Below, in pieces: positions 24,736-37,365 of a stretch of 64,000 nucleotides of DNA (the first letter of the stretch is position 1; each line of letters starts with the position of its first letter). The position numbers and the translations under genes are program-made. The stretch is from Actinomyces sp. oral taxon 170 str. F0386 (GTDB lineage Bacteria > Actinomycetota > Actinomycetes > Actinomycetales > Actinomycetaceae): contig NZ_GL882517.1 of NCBI RefSeq assembly GCF_000195595.1, positions 25,523 through 89,522 on the forward strand, in the 5' to 3' direction. The notes below the pieces were generated by a model. The model did no database searches. It saw only the letters and a list, made by a program, of their open reading frames with translations, and was not told the DNA's origin.

Positions 24736-25335
24736 GACGGACTCCTGATCGGCATGGTTGGTGGTGAACCCGGTGGTAGCAGCCTGACCGGCGTCGGCCA
24801 GGGCACTGCGTCGATGATGACAGGGATGTGTGGAAGTGGCGAACCGGAAGGTCCTGACCGGGCATCCCATGATGCTGTTTCTCCACAGCCTTGTCCACAT
24901 CTGGGGACACAGAGAGCAAAGACTCACAGGTTTTATTCAGAATAAACTCTGAGATCATCAGGGTTATTTGGTCCCGACCATGCCGCACGAGCCCGCAGAA
25001 TGACAGATGTGTAGCCGTTTCCGCGGCTCCTGCGAAGATGCACGCAGATCAGTAAGTTATCCACATATCCGCAAGGTTGTGGACAGATGGCTTCCCACAG
25101 CGGTGGACGCGGACGGATCCTGGCTGTGGATGACATGTGGACGAGATGTGGATGACGCCATCGGTCACAGTGGTCACAGTCGGCCGCATCCGTTTGACCG
25201 GCAAGAGGGCCAAACGTAGGCTGTTGCAGACGTTCGCGCGGAGTCACGTCCCGATCCATGGGGCAGCCGCGTGAGCGACAGTGCCGCGATCCTCGCGATG
25301 CACTGTTCCGATCACCTCAAGCAGGAGTTACGCCC
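24736..25335. other. dnaA-rpmH intergenic region with DnaA-box cluster (likely oriC core)
   Basis: A 600-base gap where transcription diverges. DnaA boxes: TTCTCCACA (24879), exact TTGTCCACA (24891), exact TTATCCACA (25057), then TGTGGACAG (25078), TGTGGATGA (25125), TGTGGACGA (25136) and TGTGGATGA (25147), the last four in one orientation. An AT-rich stretch (about 24929-24971), unusual for this chromosome, could be an unwinding element or the dnaA promoter. No coding sequence is seen. Confidence 0.65.
25194..25222 (+). promoter_or_regulatory. Promoter of rpmH
   Basis: TTGACC (25194-25199) and TAGGCT (25217-25222) are separated by exactly 17 bases, about 113 bases upstream of rpmH and just beyond the DnaA-box cluster. 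Confidence 0.7.
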
Positions 25336-27518: not shown

Positions 27519-28154
27519 ATGAGTGAGCAGCACAGTAACGACTCCTCCCAGCAGTCCGCAGGCAGGCCTGTGAGCAGCACCGTCTCGCGCCTCGAGGAGG
27601 AGGGCGAGATCGGCGCCGACTACCTGGAGGAGCTTCTCGACATCGCCGACCTGGGAGGCGACATCGATATCGACATCGACCACGGACGCGCCTCGATCGC
27701 CGTGGTCGCCTCCGAGGAGGGTGACGAGCGCGAGCTCGCTGATCTTGTCGGACGCGATGGTGAGGTTCTGGAGGCCGTTCAGGAGCTGACCCGTCTCGCG
27801 GTCCAGGCTCGCACCGGCAACCGGTCCCGGCTCATGCTCGACATCAACGGTTACCGCGCCGATCGTCGCACCGAGCTCACCAAGGTCGCCCAGGAGGCCG
27901 TTACCAAGGTGCTCACCTCAGGTGAGACCGTCAGCCTGGAGCCGATGAATCCCTTCGAGCGCAAGGTGTGCCACGACGTCGTCGCCTCCGCCGGCCTGGT
28001 CTCAGAGTCCGAGGGCGCCGAGCCCCACCGCTACGTCGTGGTTCTGCCGGCCGACGAGGCTGATGACCAGGACGGTGATGACGCCGACGGCGTGGACGTC
28101 GTCGAGAAGGCCGGCGAGGAGTCGGAGTCGGTCGCGGAGCGCTCTGACGCATGA
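27519..28154 (+). CDS. jag: Jag/KhpB RNA-binding protein (KH + R3H)
   Basis: A 211-residue RNA-binding protein. The KH domain covers about residues 47-105 (with VGRDGEVLEAVQEL), and the R3H domain follows with LEPMNPFERKVCHDVV. The C-terminus is a long Asp/Glu/Val-rich tail not seen in short homologues. KhpB proteins affect cell elongation and division in Firmicutes; in actinobacteria the role is inferred from its place after yidC. Its stop overlaps the rsmG start as ATGA. Confidence 0.93.
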   Translation: MSEQHSNDSSQQSAGRPVSSTVSRLEEEGEIGADYLEELLDIADLGGDIDIDIDHGRASIAVVASEEGDERELADLVGRDGEVLEAVQELTRLAVQARTGNRSRLMLDINGYRADRRTELTKVAQEAVTKVLTSGETVSLEPMNPFERKVCHDVVASAGLVSESEGAEPHRYVVVLPADEADDQDGDDADGVDVVEKAGEESESVAERSDA

Positions 28155-28795
28155 GTGAGGAGCAGCGGGCCCAGGTGGAGGAGCCGACGTCGGAGATGCG
28201 GGAGATCTTCGGGGTCTCCTTCTCCGCGGCGGAGCACTTCGCCCAGATGCTCGCTGAGGAGGGTGAGCTGCGCGGTCTCGTGGGGCCGCGTGAGCTTCCC
28301 CGCCTGTGGAGCCGGCACATCGTCAACTCGGCCGCCGTGGTCCCTTTCCTCCCGGCCCGGGGAAGCGTGGCCGACGTTGGTTCCGGGGCCGGTTTCCCCG
28401 GTGTGGTGGTCGCGCTGCTGCGACCCGACCTCGACGTCACTCTCATTGAGACGATGGAGCGGCGCACCCAGTGGCTCTCCGACGTCGTCGAGGAGCTGGA
28501 CCTGGACAACGTGACCATTCGACGAGCACGCGCCGAGGAGATCAAGGACCGCTATGACGTGGTCACGGCTCGTGCGGTGGCGAACCTGTCCAAGCTGGTG
28601 AGGCTGACCGCACCGTTGCTCCGGCCGGGGGGTGCCTTGCTCGCCCTCAAGGGGATGCGAGCACAAGCCGAGGTCGACGACGCCAAGTACGTTATTAAAA
28701 ATAAAAAGTTATCAGTTGCTGTAGTTCATGAGGTTGTTACTCCCGGCGATGAAACGACTGCCGTGGTTGAGATTCGCCGCCCGAAGAACCGGTGA
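28151..28795 (+). CDS. rsmG: 16S rRNA (guanine-N7)-methyltransferase RsmG
   Basis: The 214-residue SAM-dependent enzyme that methylates G527 of 16S rRNA. The SAM-binding loop is DVGSGAGFPG (about 75-84), followed by VTLIETMERR and the ARAVANLSKL region. It is coupled to jag. Oddly, about 50 bases near the 3' end (28688-28740) are strikingly AT-rich and include the rare codon TTA, unlike the rest of the gene. The reading frame stays open and ends normally. Confidence 0.95.
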   Translation: MSEEQRAQVEEPTSEMREIFGVSFSAAEHFAQMLAEEGELRGLVGPRELPRLWSRHIVNSAAVVPFLPARGSVADVGSGAGFPGVVVALLRPDLDVTLIETMERRTQWLSDVVEELDLDNVTIRRARAEEIKDRYDVVTARAVANLSKLVRLTAPLLRPGGALLALKGMRAQAEVDDAKYVIKNKKLSVAVVHEVVTPGDETTAVVEIRRPKNR

Positions 28796-28902: not shown

Positions 28903-29805
28903 TTGTCCGGATCGTCTATCTTCGATCAGCTCCAGGCCGAGCACCTCGCCCTAGACGAGGTAGCGGGTGGAGAGTTCCCACATCCCGAGCGAACCCGGGT
29001 CGTCGCGGTCGCGAACCAGAAAGGCGGCGTCGGAAAGACGTCGACCGCAGTCAATCTCGCCGCTGCGCTGGCCGAAGGAGGATTGCACGTCCTCCTCATC
29101 GATGCTGACTCGCAGGGCAATGCTTCGACCGCACTGGGGGTGGAGCATGGTGATGACAATGCGTCCATCTACGATGTTCTTGTCGACGGGGTATCCATTA
29201 AGGATGTCGTGGCCAAGACCCGCTTCTGTGAGACCTTGTGGTGTGTGCCGGCAACAATTGACGTCGCCGCCGTCGAGATCGAGCTCATCTCCACCGCTGA
29301 GAGGGAGTCACGTCTGCGGCGTGCGCTCGTGGACTACCTGGTTTCACGTGAAACCGATGGACAGGAACCGCTCGACTACGTCATCATCGACTGCCCTCCC
29401 AGCCTCGGTATCATGACGATCAACGCCTTCGTCGCAGCCGACGAAGTCCTTATTCCGATGCAGGCCGAGTACTACGCCCTTGAGGGACTGGCCCTCCTGA
29501 CACGATCCATCGATCGGATCGCTCGCATTCACAATCCGGGCTTGGGTGTCTCGATGATTGTGCTCACCATGTTTGACGGACGCACCACCTTGGCGCGTGA
29601 GGTGGAGTCCGAGGTTCGTTCCTATTTCCCTGATGCGACGCTGGACACCAAGGTGCCGCGTTCCATCCGTGTTGCCGAAGCTCCCTCCTTCGGCGCTCCC
29701 GTGGTGTTCTGGGATCCCCGGTCCACCGGCGCGATTGCGTATAAGAAAATGGCTCGTGAAGTTGCTCTCCGGGGCGCTCCCCGAAATGAAGGCGAGGAAG
29801 CCTAA
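28903..29805 (+). CDS. parA: Chromosome partitioning ATPase ParA
   Basis: A 300-residue ParA/Soj ATPase that binds DNA in its ATP form and moves ParB-parS complexes. The deviant Walker A motif KGGVGKTST is at 40-48; [11 protein letters not shown] and [11 protein letters not shown] are the A' and B motifs. A 32-residue N-terminal extension precedes the fold. It begins with TTG after GAGGAGAAG. Residues VSRET (147-151) are encoded by a perfect parS site, which replaces a variable loop without breaking the frame. Its stop overlaps parB as TAATG. A TAGACT -10 word lies at 28843. Confidence 0.96.
29341..29354. promoter_or_regulatory. parS site inside parA
   Basis: Perfect 14-bp palindrome GTTTCACGTGAAAC, read in frame as VSRET. 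Confidence 0.9.
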
Positions 29806-31457
29806 TGGCTCAGAAACGGCGCGGACTCGGACGGGGTCTGCAGGCGCTGATTCCAGAGGCGCAGAAGGAGAAGGTCTCTGCGTCTCGTCCTTCTGACGTG
29901 TTCTTTCCTGATTCGAGGAAGGCGGAGGTCCAGGATGAGAAAGCACCTTCTGAGCCCGAGCATGCCGCCCCGGAGCCGGAGGCGGAAGCTCGGAGCACCC
30001 GCGATCTGACGGCGACTCTCCTGGCTCCTTCTCAACGGAAGCGGGGGTCGAAGAGTCGCTCAACGCGTTCGACGTCGTCTAAGACGACAGAGAAGAGTAA
30101 ACAGACAACGTCTGTTTCACGTGAAACCACGCCGGATTCGGTTGCCGCGACGGATACCGCCGCTACTGCTGCGAAGAAGACCGGAAAGACCTCGTCAGCT
30201 ACCTCGGCCAAGCGCACCCGATCGACGGTTCAGAGGAAGACAACGGCACAGAAGCGTCCGGCGAAGAAGGTTCCGGAGGCTGTGGAGCCGGCTGAGGAAG
30301 CAGTGGAGGAGCTGACAGCGCAGCCGGAGGTCGCTGAGACGTCATCTGCTGCGATTGCTCAGTCGGCGCAGGATATCTCGACCGAGGTTGAGGCTGTTGC
30401 TGAATCCTCTCCGGAGACAGTCGTCACCTCCGAAGAGCCTGTTGTTTCACGTGAAACGGAGGAGGGACACTCCTCGGTCATCGATGCCGAGCCCACTGAG
30501 TCCTTGCGCTCCGATGAACAGCCGTCTGCCGACATGTCGGAGAAGCCTGATACTCGCGCTGATTCACATGACGCGATCGATGGCGAAGATGATGCTGCGG
30601 ACGCTGATGCGTCCGATCTGGTTCCAGTCCCCGGTGCCCGTTTCGCTGAGATTCCGGTGGAGCTGATTCACCCGAATCCTCGTCAGCCTCGGCAGGTATT
30701 CGATGAGGAGGACATCTCAGAGCTGGCTGCGTCTATCGCGGAAGTGGGACTGCTGCAACCAATCGTGGTGCGGCAGGTGCCGACCGCTTCGGGAGAGGAT
30801 CCGCGTTACGAGCTCATCATGGGTGAGCGTCGTCTGCGTGCTTCTAAGGAAGCCGGCCTGGAGACGATTCCGGCTGTTGTCCGGGATACTGACGACGTCG
30901 ATCTTCTGCGAGACGCACTGCTGGAGAACCTGCACCGCGTCCAGCTCAACCCCCTGGAAGAGGCTGCGGCCTACCAGCAGCTGCTGGAGGACTTCCAGTG
31001 CACTCACGCGGAGCTGTCCGAGCGGATCGCTCGTTCGCGCTCACAGATCTCCAATACGCTGCGCCTCATGAAGCTACCGCCGCTGGTTCAGCGTCGGCTC
31101 GCCGCCAATGTCATCTCGGCCGGCCACGCTCGCGCTCTTCTCGGACTTCCGAACGCTGCGGAAATGGAACGTCTCGCTCAGCGTGTGGTGGCCGAGGGAC
31201 TCTCAGTTCGAGCAACAGAAGAGCTTGTTGCGCTCCACGAGGAGCCGGAACCGGGCTCGGATCAGCCAAAGGTACTGCGGGCGCGCAGCACCCCTCTCCC
31301 GGCGCTGTCAACGCGGCTCTCGGATGCTTTCGACACTCGCGTCAAGGTGACACGTGGAGCGAAGAAGGGTCGCATCACTATTGAGTTCGCCGGGGATGAC
31401 GATCTCGCTCGTATCGTTGGTGCGCTGGCGCCGGGGACATCGCTCGACGAAGAGTAG
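29805..31457 (+). CDS. parB: ParB centromere-binding CTPase with long disordered linker
   Basis: A 550-residue ParB. The N-terminal [13 protein letters not shown] (about 5-17) is the ParA-interaction motif. The ParB N-lobe starts near 277, with the CTP-binding GERR at 340-343 and the helix-turn-helix around [19 protein letters not shown]. The C-terminal dimerisation segment ends [10 protein letters not shown]. Most ParB proteins have 280-380 residues. Here about 255 low-complexity residues (Lys/Ser/Thr-rich, then Glu/Ala-rich) separate the ParA motif from the core. Two perfect parS sites lie in the linker-coding DNA, both read as VSRET (residues 104 and 214). A strong terminator follows, and then the parS array. 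Confidence 0.96.
30114..30127. promoter_or_regulatory. parS site inside parB (first)
   Basis: Perfect GTTTCACGTGAAAC, in frame as VSRET in the ParB linker. Confidence 0.9.
30444..30457. promoter_or_regulatory. parS site inside parB (second)
   Basis: Perfect GTTTCACGTGAAAC, in frame as VSRET in the ParB linker, 330 bases after the previous copy. Confidence 0.9.
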
Positions 31458-31483
31458 CTGACGCCGAATGTGACAACAACGGC

Positions 31484-31514
31484 GGGGGCTGAGACAGAAA
31501 CTGTCTCAGCCCCC
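31484..31514 (+). terminator. Terminator of parAB
   Basis: A perfect 14-bp inverted repeat (31484-31497 and 31501-31514) with loop AAA, 27 bases after the parB stop and followed by a T-rich run. Confidence 0.85.
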
Positions 31515-31602
31515 ATTTCTCGTTGTGATGAAGCAACGGAGGCGGATGACGCTTCGTCTTCCTCGGGTGAGGTGCTGGAGTTCAGAGGGACCTGCAGATC
31601 GT

Positions 31603-31616
31603 GTTTCACGTGAAAC
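31603..31616. promoter_or_regulatory. parS site 1 of the array
   Basis: Perfect GTTTCACGTGAAAC, about 90 bases beyond the parB terminator. Confidence 0.92.
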
Positions 31617-31950
31617 GGTGCAGCCTTGCTGTTAGTGCCCGGGATGAGATCTAAGAACCAACGGTGCATGGCACATCTCTCGGCCTACCGAGTGAGCGTC
31701 GTTTAACCGAGGTGTCAAGGCCGATGTGCTCCTTCTGGGTGGGGCTCGCCGTCTTGTCTCAATACCTTTCCCGAGAAGGCGACCTGCTTCGGGTGGATGC
31801 TGGCCGTCATCGTTGTCGGCAGCTAGCCTGATATGGCGTGGCTAGTGATGCCGCGGGAGAACCGACTCCTCCTGGTGAACTGGAACCGGCGATCGACTGA
31901 GGGTAGCGGGCTGACAGCATCCGTTGTCGGGGTAGATCCTTCCGACGTTG

Positions 31951-31964
31951 GTTTCACGTGAAAC
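31951..31964. promoter_or_regulatory. parS site 2 of the array
   Basis: Perfect 14-bp palindrome, 348 bases after the previous copy. Confidence 0.92.
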
Positions 31965-32108
31965 CGGTGAAGAGCTTCTAGCAGGCCACTGACCGGCAGA
32001 CGTCGTCACATAGCTCGTCGTGGAGGAGGGCAGCGACGCAACGAGGTCTATTGCTGGCCCTCTCCCGAGAGATGTCCGGCTGGTCTTCTACGGCGCGGTA
32101 GAGAGGCC

Positions 32109-32122
32109 GTTTCACGTGAAAC
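32109..32122. promoter_or_regulatory. parS site 3 of the array
   Basis: Perfect 14-bp palindrome, 158 bases after the previous copy. Confidence 0.92.
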
Positions 32123-32547
32123 GTCGATCAGTTCCCTATGGGGTACGCGTGCGTGGCACATACGAATGTGTGAATCGCCGGAGGGGCGCCACAGCCACGT
32201 TTCACTCATGTTCTTAATCAGGGCGGTCATAGATCATCCGAACATCAGCTCGCGTAATGTCTATCGTTCGAATCGGTGGTTGATGCTAGTGGCGGGGTGC
32301 CAATGTGGGTGCAACGGTGGCGTAGTCGGCCCGGTTGGTCTGTAGAGGTGGCTTTACAGGCCCAACAGTAGTGAGAGGTACCGACAGGCTTGAGAGTAGC
32401 TTCAGTGTGAAGCACCTGGATCGCCTTGAGTGTCGGAACCCTGTCGGGTGGCCCGTTCTCTGACGGGCCGCCGATGGCGCAGACAACAGTCTGCTCCCGA
32501 CTTCGGCGGCGGTACGGATCGGTTGTCATCGACGGAAGCCCGATTTG

Positions 32548-32561
32548 GTTTCACGTGAAAC
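32548..32561. promoter_or_regulatory. parS site 4 of the array
   Basis: Perfect 14-bp palindrome, 439 bases after the previous copy. Confidence 0.92.
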
Positions 32562-32879
32562 GGAGATAGGAGCACTGCTACAGCTTGAGACAGCTTCGTT
32601 CCCTTCCTGAAACGATAGCTACGTCGGTTCAGGCTGGTGATGCTGCTCATGCCGGGAAGGCGTGGGTAGGTGTGCTGCTCTTCCATACTTTGTATGTGGC
32701 ACAGAAGAACGGATGTACTGACGGGACCGTCGTGACCCGAATCGTCTTCCTCGGTGGAGACGTTATCAATGGGTGCAGGAGGCTGGAATGCCGTCCTGGG
32801 TTGGCGAACTAAGGACTGAAACCAATTTGATGTTGCAGCAGAAGGGGGAACACTCGGTGATCAGGCCAACTCGATGCTG

Positions 32880-32893
32880 GTTTCACGTGAAAC
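32880..32893. promoter_or_regulatory. parS site 5 of the array
   Basis: Perfect 14-bp palindrome, 332 bases after the previous copy. Confidence 0.92.
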
Positions 32894-33201
32894 GTACGTG
32901 TGGGGCTGCGGAAAGACAATCGAGTTTTGACCCGTGTGGATTGCTCTCCTGCCGCTCCGGCTGGATGAGTGCGGGGTGCGAGGAGTAGATGGTTGTGTGT
33001 CGGCGTCTTCGCTACGGATGAGCATGGGCGGAATCGCCAACGGAGCACAGAGGCAACTTGCACTGGAAGACGAGTGTCATGCCTCGGCGTAGTGTCCTCG
33101 GCTCCACGCGGAAGAAGTGGGGTCTACTCTGTGCTGGTCGTGACCTACGTTCCAAGGATCGAACCTGCACTCGCCGCATACCGAGCGGACCGCCGGGGGT
33201 G

Positions 33202-33215
33202 CTGTCACGTGAAAC
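33202..33215. promoter_or_regulatory. Degenerate parS site (array position 6)
   Basis: CTGTCACGTGAAAC differs from the perfect site at two bases of the left arm; the TCACGTGA core and the right arm are intact. It sits at the spacing expected for the array. Confidence 0.7.
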
Positions 33216-33616
33216 CGATGGTTCTCGAGGCTCTCCAACATTGGTGCCCACGCCGATGTCGATGACAGCGCACTGAGCTGTTTCGCACGCGATGAATCCG
33301 TGATGCTTCCAGAGCACGCGCGGAGTTGTGCCGCTGGATACTTGTGACACGGAGTAGTGAGGCGAAGACCTGCCCGTTCTAATGGAACGTGCCGGGGGCT
33401 CGTTGACCAGGGTGGTGGACAGTAGCTCATCCCGGGATGTTCAAAGATTTTCGCTGACTTTCAGTGGGCATATGATGTCGAGTACAGGGAGCCCGTGCTG
33501 CAGACTCGCCGTTGCCTGATGGGGATGGTGCCTTTCGATGTACCTGAATGGCCGAAGTGCTCACAGAGGCGTGGTCGGCTTGGCCGCGGCGGAGAGGCGT
33601 TATTTCAACGGCATTG

Positions 33617-33630
33617 GTTTCACGTGAAAC
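33617..33630. promoter_or_regulatory. parS site 7 of the array
   Basis: Perfect 14-bp palindrome, 415 bases after the degenerate copy. Confidence 0.92.
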
Positions 33631-33825
33631 TCAGATACCTGCGTTCCGAGCACCTGGCGTCCCTCAGAGGTTGAGATTCATACTTCTGAGGGCGATTCGC
33701 CTCGCCCCTACCCCGAATGGGAGAGGAGGGTACCTAAGGACGTGAGAGACGAGTCAACACTCAAGGAGCATCATGCCTGACCCTCGATCGATATTGCCCA
33801 TGAGACGCCCCGGGATGGGAAGTAG

Positions 33826-33839
33826 GTTTCACGTGAAAC
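33826..33839. promoter_or_regulatory. parS site 8 of the array
   Basis: Perfect 14-bp palindrome, 209 bases after the previous copy. Confidence 0.92.
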
Positions 33840-34290
33840 CGATCGAGTCGAGATGAGGTTGAGTGATGCACGTTGCTGAAGCCTATGCTCGATGTTGCCG
33901 ATGTGGATGGTTGCCTGGTCGCGCATGGTGAGCCTGCTGTAGTGGATGGACAGAACCGGCTGCGGCTGTTGGCGGCACGGTCACAGAAACTGGCAGGCGG
34001 TTCGACTCCACCAACATCTTAGGAAGCATTGGCCGAGCAGGCCTCACTCCGCATGGCGAGGTCATGACAGAGTCCAGCGTCTACCCGAGGGAATCGAGGC
34101 CTCCGGTTCGATGAGGTGATGACTTTAGCTCCACCTGAGATGCTTCGGAGGACTCGCCATGTCCAGATACCGGGCCGTCACTCGCTCTCTCCTGAATCGC
34201 TTGAGTTGAGGAAGAAGACCTGTACGGAGTCGAGAGCGACGCACTCACACGGATACCTCTTCAACTAGAAGGCGACGCGTTTAGTTAGAC

Positions 34291-34304
34291 GTTTCACGTG
34301 AAAC
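34291..34304. promoter_or_regulatory. parS site 9 of the array
   Basis: Perfect 14-bp palindrome, 465 bases after the previous copy, the widest gap in the array. Confidence 0.92.
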
Positions 34305-34597
34305 GGGATGTCAACCAGATCGTGTTGCGAAAGTATGCGATCTCAAGGGAGCGGCTGGGCACTGATCCGTCGTAGACGACCTTAGCTGTCGACTGCGGAC
34401 GTCGCGGGTGTATTCCCTAGACCCTCATGTGCATCCACGAGCTCCGGCAGCAACGTTATAGAACTGTCTCAACAGGCTGGTTCACGAGACTGGCTCGCAA
34501 CCAGTTGGACAACACTGTCTATGAGGCGATGATGTGCCGCGAGCTGCTTCTTCTGGGGAGGACGGAGTTGTCTTGTAGTGCGCTCTTCAGTAACGAC

Positions 34598-34611
34598 GTT
34601 TCACGTGAAAC
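34598..34611. promoter_or_regulatory. parS site 10 of the array
   Basis: Perfect 14-bp palindrome, 307 bases after the previous copy. Confidence 0.92.
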
Positions 34612-34769
34612 TGAGTCTCGCGTTGATGATGCCGATCGGGACCCGCCTCGCTGCGCATCGAGCCTGAACGGAGAGTTAACCTCCGGTCGTCGTTGCCATT
34701 CCCTCCCCTGAGGAGAGGCCTGTCGTGGTCATCCTGAGACGCTGGCATGTCGAAGCTGCATCGACATGT

Positions 34770-34783
34770 GTTTCACGTGAAAC
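34770..34783. promoter_or_regulatory. parS site 11 of the array
   Basis: Perfect 14-bp palindrome, 172 bases after the previous copy. Confidence 0.92.
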
Positions 34784-34843
34784 CAGAGGAGCTCCGTAAC
34801 TCACTCTATCGCCGTGCGGCGCAGTCTCATCGTCATTGCATAC

Positions 34844-34879
34844 AACAGTGGCTCCGCTCAAAAGAGCGGAGCCACTGTT
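34844..34879 (-). terminator. Terminator of the ligase operon, fused to a parS site
   Basis: A perfect 16-bp inverted repeat (34844-34859 and 34864-34879, loop AAAA) lies 22 bases beyond the ligase stop on the minus strand. Its right arm shares its last three bases with the adjoining parS site. Confidence 0.85.
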
Positions 34880-34890
34880 TCACGTGAAAC
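34877..34890. promoter_or_regulatory. parS site 12 of the array, overlapping the terminator
   Basis: Perfect 14-bp palindrome only 107 bases after the previous copy. It lies between the ligase stop codon and its terminator stem and overlaps the stem by three bases. Confidence 0.9.
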
Positions 34891-34900
34891 CGAACAGGAA

Positions 34901-35848
34901 CTATGGGTGGACGAGTGGGTTCCTCACTAGCGCGTCGTACAGGCCCTCCAGACCGCCTTCTGCTTTTGCAGCGATCGGGAGCAGAGAGGTCTCTGTCATT
35001 CCTGGAATGACGTTGACGTCAATGAACCAGGGCGTCCCCTCCTCATCGAGAATGAGGTCGGTTCGAGAGAGATTCCCGAGTCCGAGGGTGGAGTGAACCG
35101 TGACAGCGGTGCTCTTGACCATCTCAATAACCGAGTCATTCAGACGCGCGGGAACGAAGTACTCCGAGCGGCCCGGGTTATAGCGTGCATCGAAGTCGTA
35201 CTGCCCATCAGTCACTACCTCAACGGGCGGGAGCGCGCGTGGCCCCTCTCCCGTATCCACGACGGACACTGCGAGCTCCGTGCCGGGGACATAGCGCTCG
35301 ATGAGGGCTCGCTCGTCATACGCAAAACATGCCACCATCGCGGATCGCAGCTCGTCCGCCGTCGATGCGTAGGAGACGCCGAGTCCAGAACCTCCCTGAT
35401 GGGGCTTCACCACCACGGGAAGCCCGAGATGACCAGCGACAACAGTCAGAACCTCCTGCGCTCCAAGCTGACTGAAGTAGGAATGTGGAAGTGTTAACGA
35501 GTCAGGAGTAATCACTCCTCCGGTTCGGACACTCGCCTTAGCGGTCGGTTTAAAGGAGGCCCGTTGGCAACCGTCTGAGTGCGTGCCGACGTACGGCAGC
35601 CCCAGAGCGATGAGCATGTTCTGCAGACCTCCGTCCTCCCCGGGACCGCCGTGGACCAGTGGCCAGACGACGTCGGGCCCGAAGGTCTTGAGCGACCCAA
35701 TGGTGCGCGCATCGATGTCCAGGACCAGGACGGTGTGCCCGAGGTGCTTGAGGACCTGGGCAACGCGATGCCCGGATCGCAGCGAGATGTCGCGCTCGTG
35801 GCTCAGTCCACCGGCGAGGACAGCGATACGGAGTGGAGACTGGTTCAT
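34901..35848 (-). CDS. ddl: D-alanine--D-alanine ligase family protein (ATP-grasp)
   Basis: A 315-residue ATP-grasp ligase that would join two D-alanines for peptidoglycan. Motifs in order: GGLSHERDISLRSG at the N-terminus, VHGGPGEDG, the ATP-grasp lysine in VVVKPHQGGSGLG, and SRTDLILDEEG followed by DVNVIPGMTETSLLP. The last is usually E-x-N-T-x-PGMT; here Asp replaces the metal-binding Glu. A tyrosine in DARYNPG fits D-Ala rather than D-lactate as second substrate. Length is near the DdlB class. The start lies 8 bases after the aminotransferase stop, so the two form an operon. It may be a second ligase, since actinobacteria often have a longer Ddl elsewhere; that is inference. Confidence 0.87.
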   Translation of the reverse strand: MNQSPLRIAVLAGGLSHERDISLRSGHRVAQVLKHLGHTVLVLDIDARTIGSLKTFGPDVVWPLVHGGPGEDGGLQNMLIALGLPYVGTHSDGCQRASFKPTAKASVRTGGVITPDSLTLPHSYFSQLGAQEVLTVVAGHLGLPVVVKPHQGGSGLGVSYASTADELRSAMVACFAYDERALIERYVPGTELAVSVVDTGEGPRALPPVEVVTDGQYDFDARYNPGRSEYFVPARLNDSVIEMVKSTAVTVHSTLGLGNLSRTDLILDEEGTPWFIDVNVIPGMTETSLLPIAAKAEGGLEGLYDALVRNPLVHP

Positions 35849-35856
35849 CGTCAACC

Positions 35857-37170
35857 TCAGATCTGATCGGGTGCGGGCGCGTGAACGCCTTCGGATGGAC
35901 GGGGACTGTGGGTGGGACCGAACAGGTCCAGCAGCTCGAGATCGCGGGTGACGACGCCGGAGAGTCTTCGTACGCCTTCGCGGATCTCGACGGGCTCGGG
36001 ATAGCAGAAGGACAGTCTCAGATGGTCCTGCCCCTCCCTCCCACCGGCGTAGAAGGCCGTTCCGGAGACGTAGGCGACCAGGCTGGTGACTGCTCGCGGC
36101 AGCATGTCCTTGGCGTCGAGTCCTTCGGGGAGCCTCACCCACACGTAGAAACCACCGTCGGGGACGTTCCAGTGGCACATCGGCAGGAACTCCTCCAGCG
36201 CCGCCACCATGGCGTCGCGCCGCCCTCGGTACATGGCTCGGAAGTCCACGATCTGCTGCTTCCAGTCGAACTGGTCCAGGTACATGGAGATGGAGAACTG
36301 CCCCGCCGACGACGGGCACAGGATCGCCGCCTCTGAAGCCAGCTTCATCTTCTCCCGCACGGCCGGCGGCGCCACCGCCCAGCCCACGCGGTAACCGGGA
36401 GCGAAGATCTTGGAGAAGGAGCCGAGGTAGACGACGTCGTCGGGTGCGAGGGTTTTGAGAGCGGTGTAGGTCTGCCCCTCGAAGCCCAGAAGACCGTAGG
36501 GGTTGTCCTCCACGATGAGGATGTGATGGCGCCGGCAGATCTCGATGACCTGCGGACGGCGCTCCTCGGTGAGCGTCACCCCGGCGGGGTTGTGGAAGTT
36601 GGGCAGGCAGTAGAAGAACTTGATGCGACGCCCCTCGCGCTCAAGACGGACGATCATCTCCTCCAGAGCCTCGGGGATGACGCCGTCAGCGTCAATGGGT
36701 ACCTGCTGCACGTCGGCCTGATAGGTTGCGAAGATCGACAGGGATCCGACGTACGTGGGCGCCTCGGTCAGGACGACATCGCCGGGATCGACGAAGAGTT
36801 CTGTGACGATGTCGACGGCCTGCTGGGACCCCGTGGTGACGATGACGTCCTCCGGGTCCGTCTCGATGCCTTCGAGGGCCATGACCTCGGTGATCTGCGC
36901 CCGCAGTCGCGGCAGTCCTTGGCCGTTTCCGTACTGCAGCGCCTTGCCGCCGTCCTTGCGGATCATCTGCGCCGTGGCCTCCGCCAGCCGCTCCAGTGGA
37001 AGGTCCTTGAGATTGGGCATTCCGCCCGCCAGCGACACCACTTCCGGTCGTGAGGCGACGGCGAACAGTGAGCGAGTCTCCGAGGCGCGCAGACCATGAG
37101 CTCGCGCGGCATAGCTGTCCAGCCACGGATCGAGTCGGTTGCCCTTCACCTGGTTACTGCTCTCACTCAC
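35857..37170 (-). CDS. PLP-dependent aminotransferase, class I/II (Aro8-like)
   Basis: A fold-type I aminotransferase of 437 residues. The sequence shows GGMPNLKDLPLE, NPAGVTLTEERR, the cofactor region IVEDNPYGLL and the PLP lysine in SFSKIFAPGYRVGW. It resembles the 2-aminoadipate/aromatic aminotransferase and MocR-catalytic group without the winged-helix domain. The GTG at 37170 has GGAAGGA about 6 bases upstream; the frame is open to 37350. It leads directly into the ligase gene, suggesting a link to amino-acid supply for the wall, though the substrate is unknown. A parS site lies about 100 bases upstream. Confidence 0.88.
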   Translation of the reverse strand: MSESSNQVKGNRLDPWLDSYAARAHGLRASETRSLFAVASRPEVVSLAGGMPNLKDLPLERLAEATAQMIRKDGGKALQYGNGQGLPRLRAQITEVMALEGIETDPEDVIVTTGSQQAVDIVTELFVDPGDVVLTEAPTYVGSLSIFATYQADVQQVPIDADGVIPEALEEMIVRLEREGRRIKFFYCLPNFHNPAGVTLTEERRPQVIEICRRHHILIVEDNPYGLLGFEGQTYTALKTLAPDDVVYLGSFSKIFAPGYRVGWAVAPPAVREKMKLASEAAILCPSSAGQFSISMYLDQFDWKQQIVDFRAMYRGRRDAMVAALEEFLPMCHWNVPDGGFYVWVRLPEGLDAKDMLPRAVTSLVAYVSGTAFYAGGREGQDHLRLSFCYPEPVEIREGVRRLSGVVTRDLELLDLFGPTHSPRPSEGVHAPAPDQI

Positions 37171-37270
37171 CTTCGGTCCTTCCTTGGTGGCCACTGCTGC
37201 GTCCGTGGATCCAAGTCTGCCACGCCGCACTGGCGGGCAGGCCTCGGCGAGGACAGGAGTAATCCGCGGT

Positions 37271-37284
37271 GTTTCACGTGAAAC
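37271..37284. promoter_or_regulatory. Outlying parS site upstream of the aminotransferase gene
   Basis: Perfect 14-bp palindrome with the flanking T and A of the full 16-bp consensus, 2.4 kb from the array and about 100 bases upstream of the aminotransferase start, where it may overlap the promoter. Confidence 0.9.
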
Positions 37285-37327
37285 ACTGAAGCGTTCCCAA
37301 GACGGGTGAGACGACGCGGTGAACGAG

Positions 37328-37365
37328 AACGCTCCGCGCACCATGGACATGATGCGCGGAGCGTT
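37328..37365 (-). terminator. Terminator of thrC
   Basis: A perfect 13-bp inverted repeat (37328-37340 and 37353-37365) lies 33 bases beyond the thrC stop on the minus strand. Confidence 0.8.

Follow-up and report, generated by a model that had tools for sequence, protein, structure and literature searches.

Streptomyces chromosomes carry their parS sites, at which the partition protein ParB loads, among genes and over a far longer region than the one described here. The sites are many and lie near the origin of replication (oriC), with 20–23 copies in S. coelicolor (PMC7333895) and 16–17 in S. venezuelae (PMC12511625; this and all other articles given by PMC number are cited for what excerpts of their text contain). 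Corynebacterium glutamicum, likewise an actinobacterium with a ParABS system near oriC, has ten parS sites, nine of them intergenic, distributed over 35 kb among genes and 73 kb from oriC (PMC7083940). Caulobacter and Pseudomonas resemble the present case in that several close parS sites near the origin act as a centromere, but they have four to seven sites, and the excerpts describe no gene-free array (PMC7022226, PMC5815017). Unlike in C. glutamicum, 15 exact parS sites of Actinomyces sp. oral taxon 170 str. F0386 are packed into 8 kb, and a single 3.4-kb gap by parAB holds 11 of these. The DNA analysed here, henceforth called the window, is a 64-kb stretch of this genome (contig NZ_GL882517.1, positions 25,523 to 89,522), and the gap, which separates parB from a convergent ddl-like gene, probably represents the chromosome's centromere in compact form, i.e., a ParB-loading array kept stocked with parS.

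The motif GTTTCACGTGAAAC was found in 15 exact copies in the window, with one further copy carrying two mismatches (33202), whereas matches at up to two mismatches in the shuffled window averaged 0.11 and never exceeded 2. Between the stop codons of parB and ddl (31458–34900), 11 exact copies and the degenerate one form an array of 12 sites, with 107–465 bp from neighbour to neighbour, exactly as counted in a first-pass annotation made from the sequence letters. The remaining four exact sites comprise one in parA and two in parB, all three reported in that annotation, and one near the 5′ end of an aminotransferase open reading frame (ORF). Exact sites span 29341–37271, in agreement with the earlier statement that none lies left of 29.3 kb or beyond 37.3 kb, and the rest of the window outside this parA–aminotransferase cluster contained no further GTTTCACGTGAAAC. 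A genome-wide count, which the annotation had proposed as a check, revealed no second cluster: all 15 exact parS of the draft genome (3,135,144 bp, 76 contigs, completeness 99.96) are confined to these 8 kb rather than spread over tens of kilobases, and a genome scan at up to two mismatches added solely the degenerate copy, with one match for the reversed-pattern control. The guanine–cytosine (GC) content of the gap was 0.576, compared with 0.657 in the remainder of a 20-kb stretch, and its GC skew was positive (0.11).

That the array adjoins parAB genes of chromosomal type was borne out by domain and structure matches. A gene for a ParA Walker-type ATPase adjoins parB, and ParB matched ParB_N (E 1e-33, residues 280–377) and HTH_ParB (E 1e-32, residues 380–476) in Pfam, solved ParB structures over residues 256–477, and TIGR00180 above its cut-off, while the dimerisation domain ParB_C scored 23.4 bits, slightly below its cut-off of 23.8. 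DnaA-box-like sites (TTRTCCACA, at most one mismatch) numbered 20 in the window versus 10 expected; seven of them form a cluster, the probable oriC, 6–10 kb left of the gap, which places the parS array near oriC. SMC_N matches above cut-off were obtained at four places in the genome, with two in long frames (1121 and 1278 amino acids, aa), and ScpA was detected with an E-value of 1.5e-39, so that SMC and ScpA are both present.

A dedicated ParB-loading array appears to be the most economical reading of this arrangement, which is a real variant of ParABS whose component parts are already known. ParB–CTP clamps would load at the 11–12 sites, about one every 300 bp, and would then slide and bridge within the stretch bordered by the hairpins at parB and ddl (see below), so that one dense partition complex, on which ParA acts, could form 6–10 kb from oriC; SMC–ScpAB may load on this complex. 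ParB would occupy the gap, transcription there would be low, many sites and few genes would each be of benefit, the absence of genes might have been selected, and the complex might be larger or more stable. The tight clustering also fits a published report that clustered parS help to avoid Smc collisions.

The parAB region was retrieved from all 48 relatives sampled in the genus, and a search of 49 Actinomyces genomes, with that of the window among them, gave a parB match and between 3 and 20 exact parS in each. The window's genome falls in the Actinomyces naeslundii/oris/johnsonii group, and its clade (the window and loci L016–L026) has parB–ddl gaps of 3365–4624 bp with 8–15 exact parS, where the contig of L025 ends inside the gap (8 sites in 2713 bp) and the length for L020 counts a transposon. 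Compared with the 49 genomes, the window's gap matched itself and otherwise only at its two end regions and at mobile-element pieces. Versus the 11 clade relatives, 0–4% of the gap was alignable; since four-fold degenerate sites were themselves only 58–66% identical, this loss of similarity need not exceed the neutral expectation. Nine clade pairs had a four-fold identity of 75–84%, and four of their gaps aligned over 74–100% of their length at 72–85% identity; the other five aligned over 39–58% (three pairs with the truncated L025), 29% (L021/L023), and 4% (L021/L025). Given the poor alignment of some of these close pairs, parts of the spacer may turn over more quickly than by point mutation. 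The spacer is near-neutral in alignable pairs, its identity in the best aligned ones being close to that of the four-fold sites.

The parS sites themselves were retained in 13 of 13 cases between L019 and L022, where identity elsewhere was 74% and 5.5% of non-site 14-mers were unchanged, in 14 of 15 between L022 and L024, in 12 of 13 between L019 and L024 (at 89% identity), and in 7 of 11 between L018 and L020, compared with 0.9% of non-site 14-mers in the last pair. The comparison suggested in the first-pass annotation thus turned out as anticipated there: in alignable pairs, relatives retained parS and not the inter-site sequence. Visible sequence constraint is likely limited to the parS palindromes and the edge hairpins, with the DNA between them acting as spacer. 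Words shared over nine gaps (the window's included) were purine-rich, apart from one CCCCTACCCC word, and exceeded shuffles slightly; CCCCTACCCC and its complement together had nine occurrences in four of the nine gaps, little above shuffles.

Covarying hairpins stand at both borders of the gap. Of the 13 base pairs in the hairpin after parB, which is terminator-like on both strands, 4 had changed on both sides without loss of pairing (10 of 14 edges aligned), as had 10 of the 16 pairs in the hairpin after ddl (13 sequences). The latter hairpin overlaps the last parS of the array by 3 bases, and an exact parS abuts it at 10 of 13 edges (window included). The positions suggest that transcription of the convergent parB and ddl ends at the gap borders; as the ddl hairpin has no T run, and the terminator scan did not list it, a terminator role is proposed for it only tentatively.

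No known protein or RNA family was found in the window's gap, and in this the first-pass annotation, which had seen no credible gene there, was right. Searches against Pfam (E up to 0.1) gave no match for six of the seven gap ORFs of at least 80 aa (all but the 84-aa ORF at 32809–33063), Rfam at gathering scores gave none between 27000 and 38000, and promoter-like sites in the gap were at chance level only. A second origin in the gap was rejected, as no DnaA-box-like site occurs there. It is nevertheless conceivable that the gap holds a gene or small RNA that escaped notice, or a second replication function, because some relatives' gaps contain open frames of 200–280 aa and because two real genes of L028, later shown by Pfam, had slipped past the conservation rule. 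We regard it as highly improbable: besides the empty Pfam and Rfam searches and the missing DnaA-box-like sites, the gap DNA matches just edges and mobile-element pieces in 48 relatives, at 1e-10 no listed gap ORF finds a relative outside near loci, and, among the 50 of 85 listed gap ORFs that were scanned with Pfam (43 loci, i.e., the array gaps plus three low-site gaps), matches above cut-off occurred solely in L023 (integrase core) and L028. A gap ORF of L169 weakly matched RibD_C, below the cut-off of that family. Pfam, Rfam, and the DNA search of 48 relatives thus give no support for a gene or RNA hidden in the gap of the window; for the relatives' gaps, gene-freeness is a matter of absence of evidence.

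Long gaps recur outside the clade, e.g., in L027 (3.7 kb, 9 exact parS) and L028 (3.5 kb, 7 exact parS), while L029 packs 10 exact parS into 928 bp. In L052 and L057 the long gap sits between the aminotransferase gene and thrC and holds 9 and 5 exact parS, respectively. The annotation's proposed test of whether gap and site number are conserved gave a mixed outcome: arrays of this kind occur across the genus, but the gap is short in 26 of the 48 genomes with measurable parB–ddl distance (L025 excluded), and two loci with long gaps, L031 and L035, keep 2 sites. The L031/L035 stretches could be either decaying arrays or regions important beyond their sites. Altered parS specificity in these two loci was rejected, as no other palindrome is frequent there, and the low GC content of their gaps was dismissed as a sign of special decay, as parA and parB of the same loci are equally low at third codon positions. 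Species with long gaps include A. naeslundii, A. oris, A. johnsonii, A. gerencseriae, A. massiliensis, and A. israelii, and those with short gaps A. bovis, A. denticolens, A. gaoshouyii, A. haliotis, A. timonensis, and A. vulturis; a tie between long gaps and a filamentous lifestyle in the human mouth is no more than a lead.

A broader reading would be a regional centromere, i.e., a gene-poor, hairpin-bordered expanse by parAB that is selected for length and quietness, is free in sequence, and may originate at various positions near parAB. The number of parS (2 to 15 exact copies in long parB–ddl gaps) would then be tunable by duplication and point mutation, and the region might be likened to eukaryotic centromeres, in which function is kept while the DNA changes. 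We hold this reading to be possible but doubtful.

Diverged duplications, together with live and decayed elements in the spacers, appear to show how gaps lengthen. In relatives of the oris type, a segment with parS recurs in diverged copies at a distance of about 388 bp (65–71% identity), and L029 has a half-kilobase duplication at 66% identity. The window's gap showed no self-match, and its intervals are mutually dissimilar; two pieces within its 465-bp interval between parS 8 and 9 resemble L085–L087 (33880–33953 at 77–80% and 34022–34180 at 71%). An ORF of L087 matches DUF4096 and DDE_Tnp_1 (IS4/5-family transposase), and although the window's pieces gave no match to the transposase at the protein level (E 0.01), they are probably the remains of a decayed IS4/5-type insertion. 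Insertions sit in wide intervals free of parS (L020, L023, L028, and the window), and pieces of a Mutator-type transposase gene were found in L030 and L033. Arrays would thus grow as parS-bearing segments duplicate and insertions enter spacers, and would lose sites through point mutation. Upstream of parA in L104, a locus of another genus, five parS follow each other at exact 135-bp steps, likely a young tandem array.

These traces also fit an ordinary parS cluster in neutral DNA, in which only the sites are selected and neither length nor gene absence is; insertions and duplications would have lengthened the gap, which would persist since deletions would take parS with them. The spacer indeed changes about as fast as four-fold sites, mobile-element remains and diverged duplications lie within spacers, and L028 still has 7 exact parS with two genes inside its array. 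Neutrality accounts less readily for the retention of 3.1 kb (L035) and 3.6 kb (L031) with 2 exact parS each, for the bimodal parB–ddl distances (26 genomes with 1050 bp or less, 22 with 2400 bp or more, none between), and for comparable gaps elsewhere around parAB in other genera, and we consider it rather unlikely.

The distribution of such arrays was surveyed by a rule asking for 5 or more exact parS in a gap that measures 800 bp or more and lacks a conserved gene; only exact 14-mers were counted, so that lineages with a different parS consensus score as empty. Arrays by this rule were found in 23 of 49 Actinomyces, in 12 of 40 loci from the rest of the family (8 of the 33 other genera sampled), where they are placed upstream of parA, in 5 of 23 loci of the order's other families, and in none of the 37 remaining phylum loci, in which no gap exceeded 2 exact parS. 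The family sample (33 of 35 other genera, with 7 further species) was drawn from 159 matches, own genus included, the order sample comprised 20 loci of 147 matches plus 3 from the phylum set, and the phylum sample was 40 of 115 other matches, including these 3 members of the same order. Among the arrays, those of L025 and L114 run off the end of their stretch. L089 (8 parS in 3.3 kb) and L111 (9 in 1.15 kb) are examples upstream of parA, and L149, from another family, has 8 parS in a 6-kb stretch behind parB. The impression of the first-pass annotation that a dense gene-free parS group is unusual held within the genome and was too narrow beyond it, since such groups recur across genus and family. 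Array labels changed repeatedly on a tree of 112 loci (FastTree, with long branches meeting), where they need 19 changes, counted without distinguishing gain from loss; well-supported branches force at least 5 changes each for upstream and parB-side arrays. Arrays may thus appear in different gaps around parAB, lineage by lineage.

Spacing within arrays was evener than random when the worst array of each of 16 groups was taken (Fisher p 4e-6), a repetition of a first test on 24 hand-picked arrays of 32 (p 8e-13); the window's array alone gave p 0.04. A correlation of parS number with ParB length was rejected: Spearman was 0.52 in the full set of 48 genomes and 0.23 (p 0.19) in the 36 genomes outside the window's clade, G029, a truncated match, being excluded.

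Several observations weigh against a dedicated loading array. Such an array is missing from about half of the genus and from most loci of the family sample, and the long gap is evolutionarily dispensable, since the parB–ddl distance does not exceed 1050 bp in 26 of 48 genomes; L031 and L035, which adjoin the window's clade on the tree, have the long gap with 2 exact parS. Clade-wide constant length was dropped as a proof of selection because close pairs differ by few indels, and L021/L023 kept just 5 of 12 parS, in a poor alignment. Several arrays are not evenly spaced, with L104 clumped, and even spacing could result from duplication of similar-sized pieces without selection. Genes do occur inside arrays: a MerR-type gene and one of the metallo-beta-lactamase fold (L028:7975–9153) occupy a 1.3-kb interval without parS in L028, with parS before the first gene at 89, 528, 803, 1184, 2012, and 2078 from the parB stop, L023 has integrase-core pieces in two frames preceded by seven parS, and L020 has an open Mutator-family transposase gene in a wide parS-free interval; L028 and L023 still satisfy the rule of 5 exact parS in 800 bp. 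A single parS sufficed for growth of C. glutamicum (PMC7083940), and in vitro, transcription and ParB condensation tolerated each other (PMC10681803). The first-pass wording that the stretch is kept free of genes accordingly describes the window's gap and not L028 or L020. The two genes inside the array of L028 slightly lower the odds that the absence of genes is selected rather than tolerated.

Gene-freeness could also be a by-product of ParB itself, if dense ParB silenced promoters so that genes could not persist, without any benefit of their absence. ParB represses promoters beside parS3 and parS4 in Pseudomonas aeruginosa (PMC7022226), and ParB complexes have been proposed to limit how well RNA polymerase reaches the promoters within them (PMC10681803); however, in that same work ParB clusters hardly affected transcription in vitro, dense parS clusters of other bacteria are interspersed with genes (PMC7083940, PMC5815017), parA and parB carry parS themselves, and the L028 array contains two genes. 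Exclusion of this kind is accordingly judged unlikely.

All features of the window are compiled in the table. The gene left of parA, which also stands beside parA in relatives' loci, is presumably rsmG-like. ParB has a long low-complexity stretch from its first residues to ParB_N (29805–30640), which holds both parS of parB. Across the 49 Actinomyces, all 89 exact parS within parA (12) or parB (77) are read in the same frame, as Val-Ser-Arg-Glu-Thr, while the frame reading Phe-His-Val-Lys is also open and was never used; 47 of the 49 genomes have at least one exact parS inside the parA or parB frames. The parS near the aminotransferase ORF is possibly upstream of the true start, and its counterpart in L019 falls outside the aligned aminotransferase protein.

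Table. Features of the window (window coordinates; strand given where assigned).
Feature	Position	Strand	Basis
DnaA-box-like sites (7), probable oriC	24879..25155		TTRTCCACA, at most 1 mismatch
Gene left of parA	28151..28795	+	ORF; beside parA in relatives' loci too
parA	28903..29805	+	AAA_31 E 8e-55
parS in parA, exact	29341..29354		motif scan
parB, 550 aa	29805..31457	+	ParB_N, HTH_ParB, structures, TIGR00180
parS in parB, exact	30114..30127		motif scan
parS in parB, exact	30444..30457		motif scan
parS array, parB stop to ddl stop, without detectable gene	31458..34900		ORFs, Pfam, Rfam
Hairpin after parB, terminator-like on both strands	31484..31514	+	terminator scan, covariation
Gap parS 1, exact	31603..31616		motif scan
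Gap parS 2, exact	31951..31964		motif scan
Gap parS 3, exact	32109..32122		motif scan
Gap parS 4, exact	32548..32561		motif scan
Gap parS 5, exact	32880..32893		motif scan
Gap parS 6, degenerate, 2 mismatches	33202..33215		motif scan
Gap parS 7, exact	33617..33630		motif scan
Gap parS 8, exact	33826..33839		motif scan
Probable decayed mobile element, two pieces	33880..34180		similarity to L085–L087
Gap parS 9, exact	34291..34304		motif scan
Gap parS 10, exact	34598..34611		motif scan
Gap parS 11, exact	34770..34783		motif scan
Hairpin after ddl, no T run	34844..34879	-	sequence, covariation
Gap parS 12, exact, abuts ddl hairpin	34877..34890		motif scan, edge comparison
ddl-like gene of the D-Ala-D-Ala ligase family, converging on parB; uncertain start	34901..35854	-	Dala_Dala_lig_C E 9e-40
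Class I/II aminotransferase ORF, start uncertain	35857..37350	-	Aminotran_1_2 E 2e-40
parS near aminotransferase ORF 5′ end, possibly upstream of true start	37271..37284		motif scan

The F-plasmid centromere sopC also consists of ParB-binding repeats packed behind the parB gene, in the form of regular short tandem repeats. Unlike sopC, the Actinomyces gap is no regular tandem repeat array; its intervals of 107–465 bp are mutually dissimilar, though relatives hold diverged duplications. Searches restricted to open-licence PubMed Central papers turned up no account of a dense, gene-poor, hairpin-bordered, and variably placed parS array with free spacer. The literature treats as open what makes the number of parS differ where a single site is often enough, and which forces have led the sites to cluster and multiply in evolution (PMC7333895, PMC5815017). 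Actinomyces offers a natural series for both, with 3 to 20 exact parS per genome, compact and expanded gaps, and varied array positions, and the growth steps of its arrays (segmental duplication, insertion, decay) are still readable, so that parS number and clustering can be studied here through deletions, replaced spacers, and contrasts between sister species.

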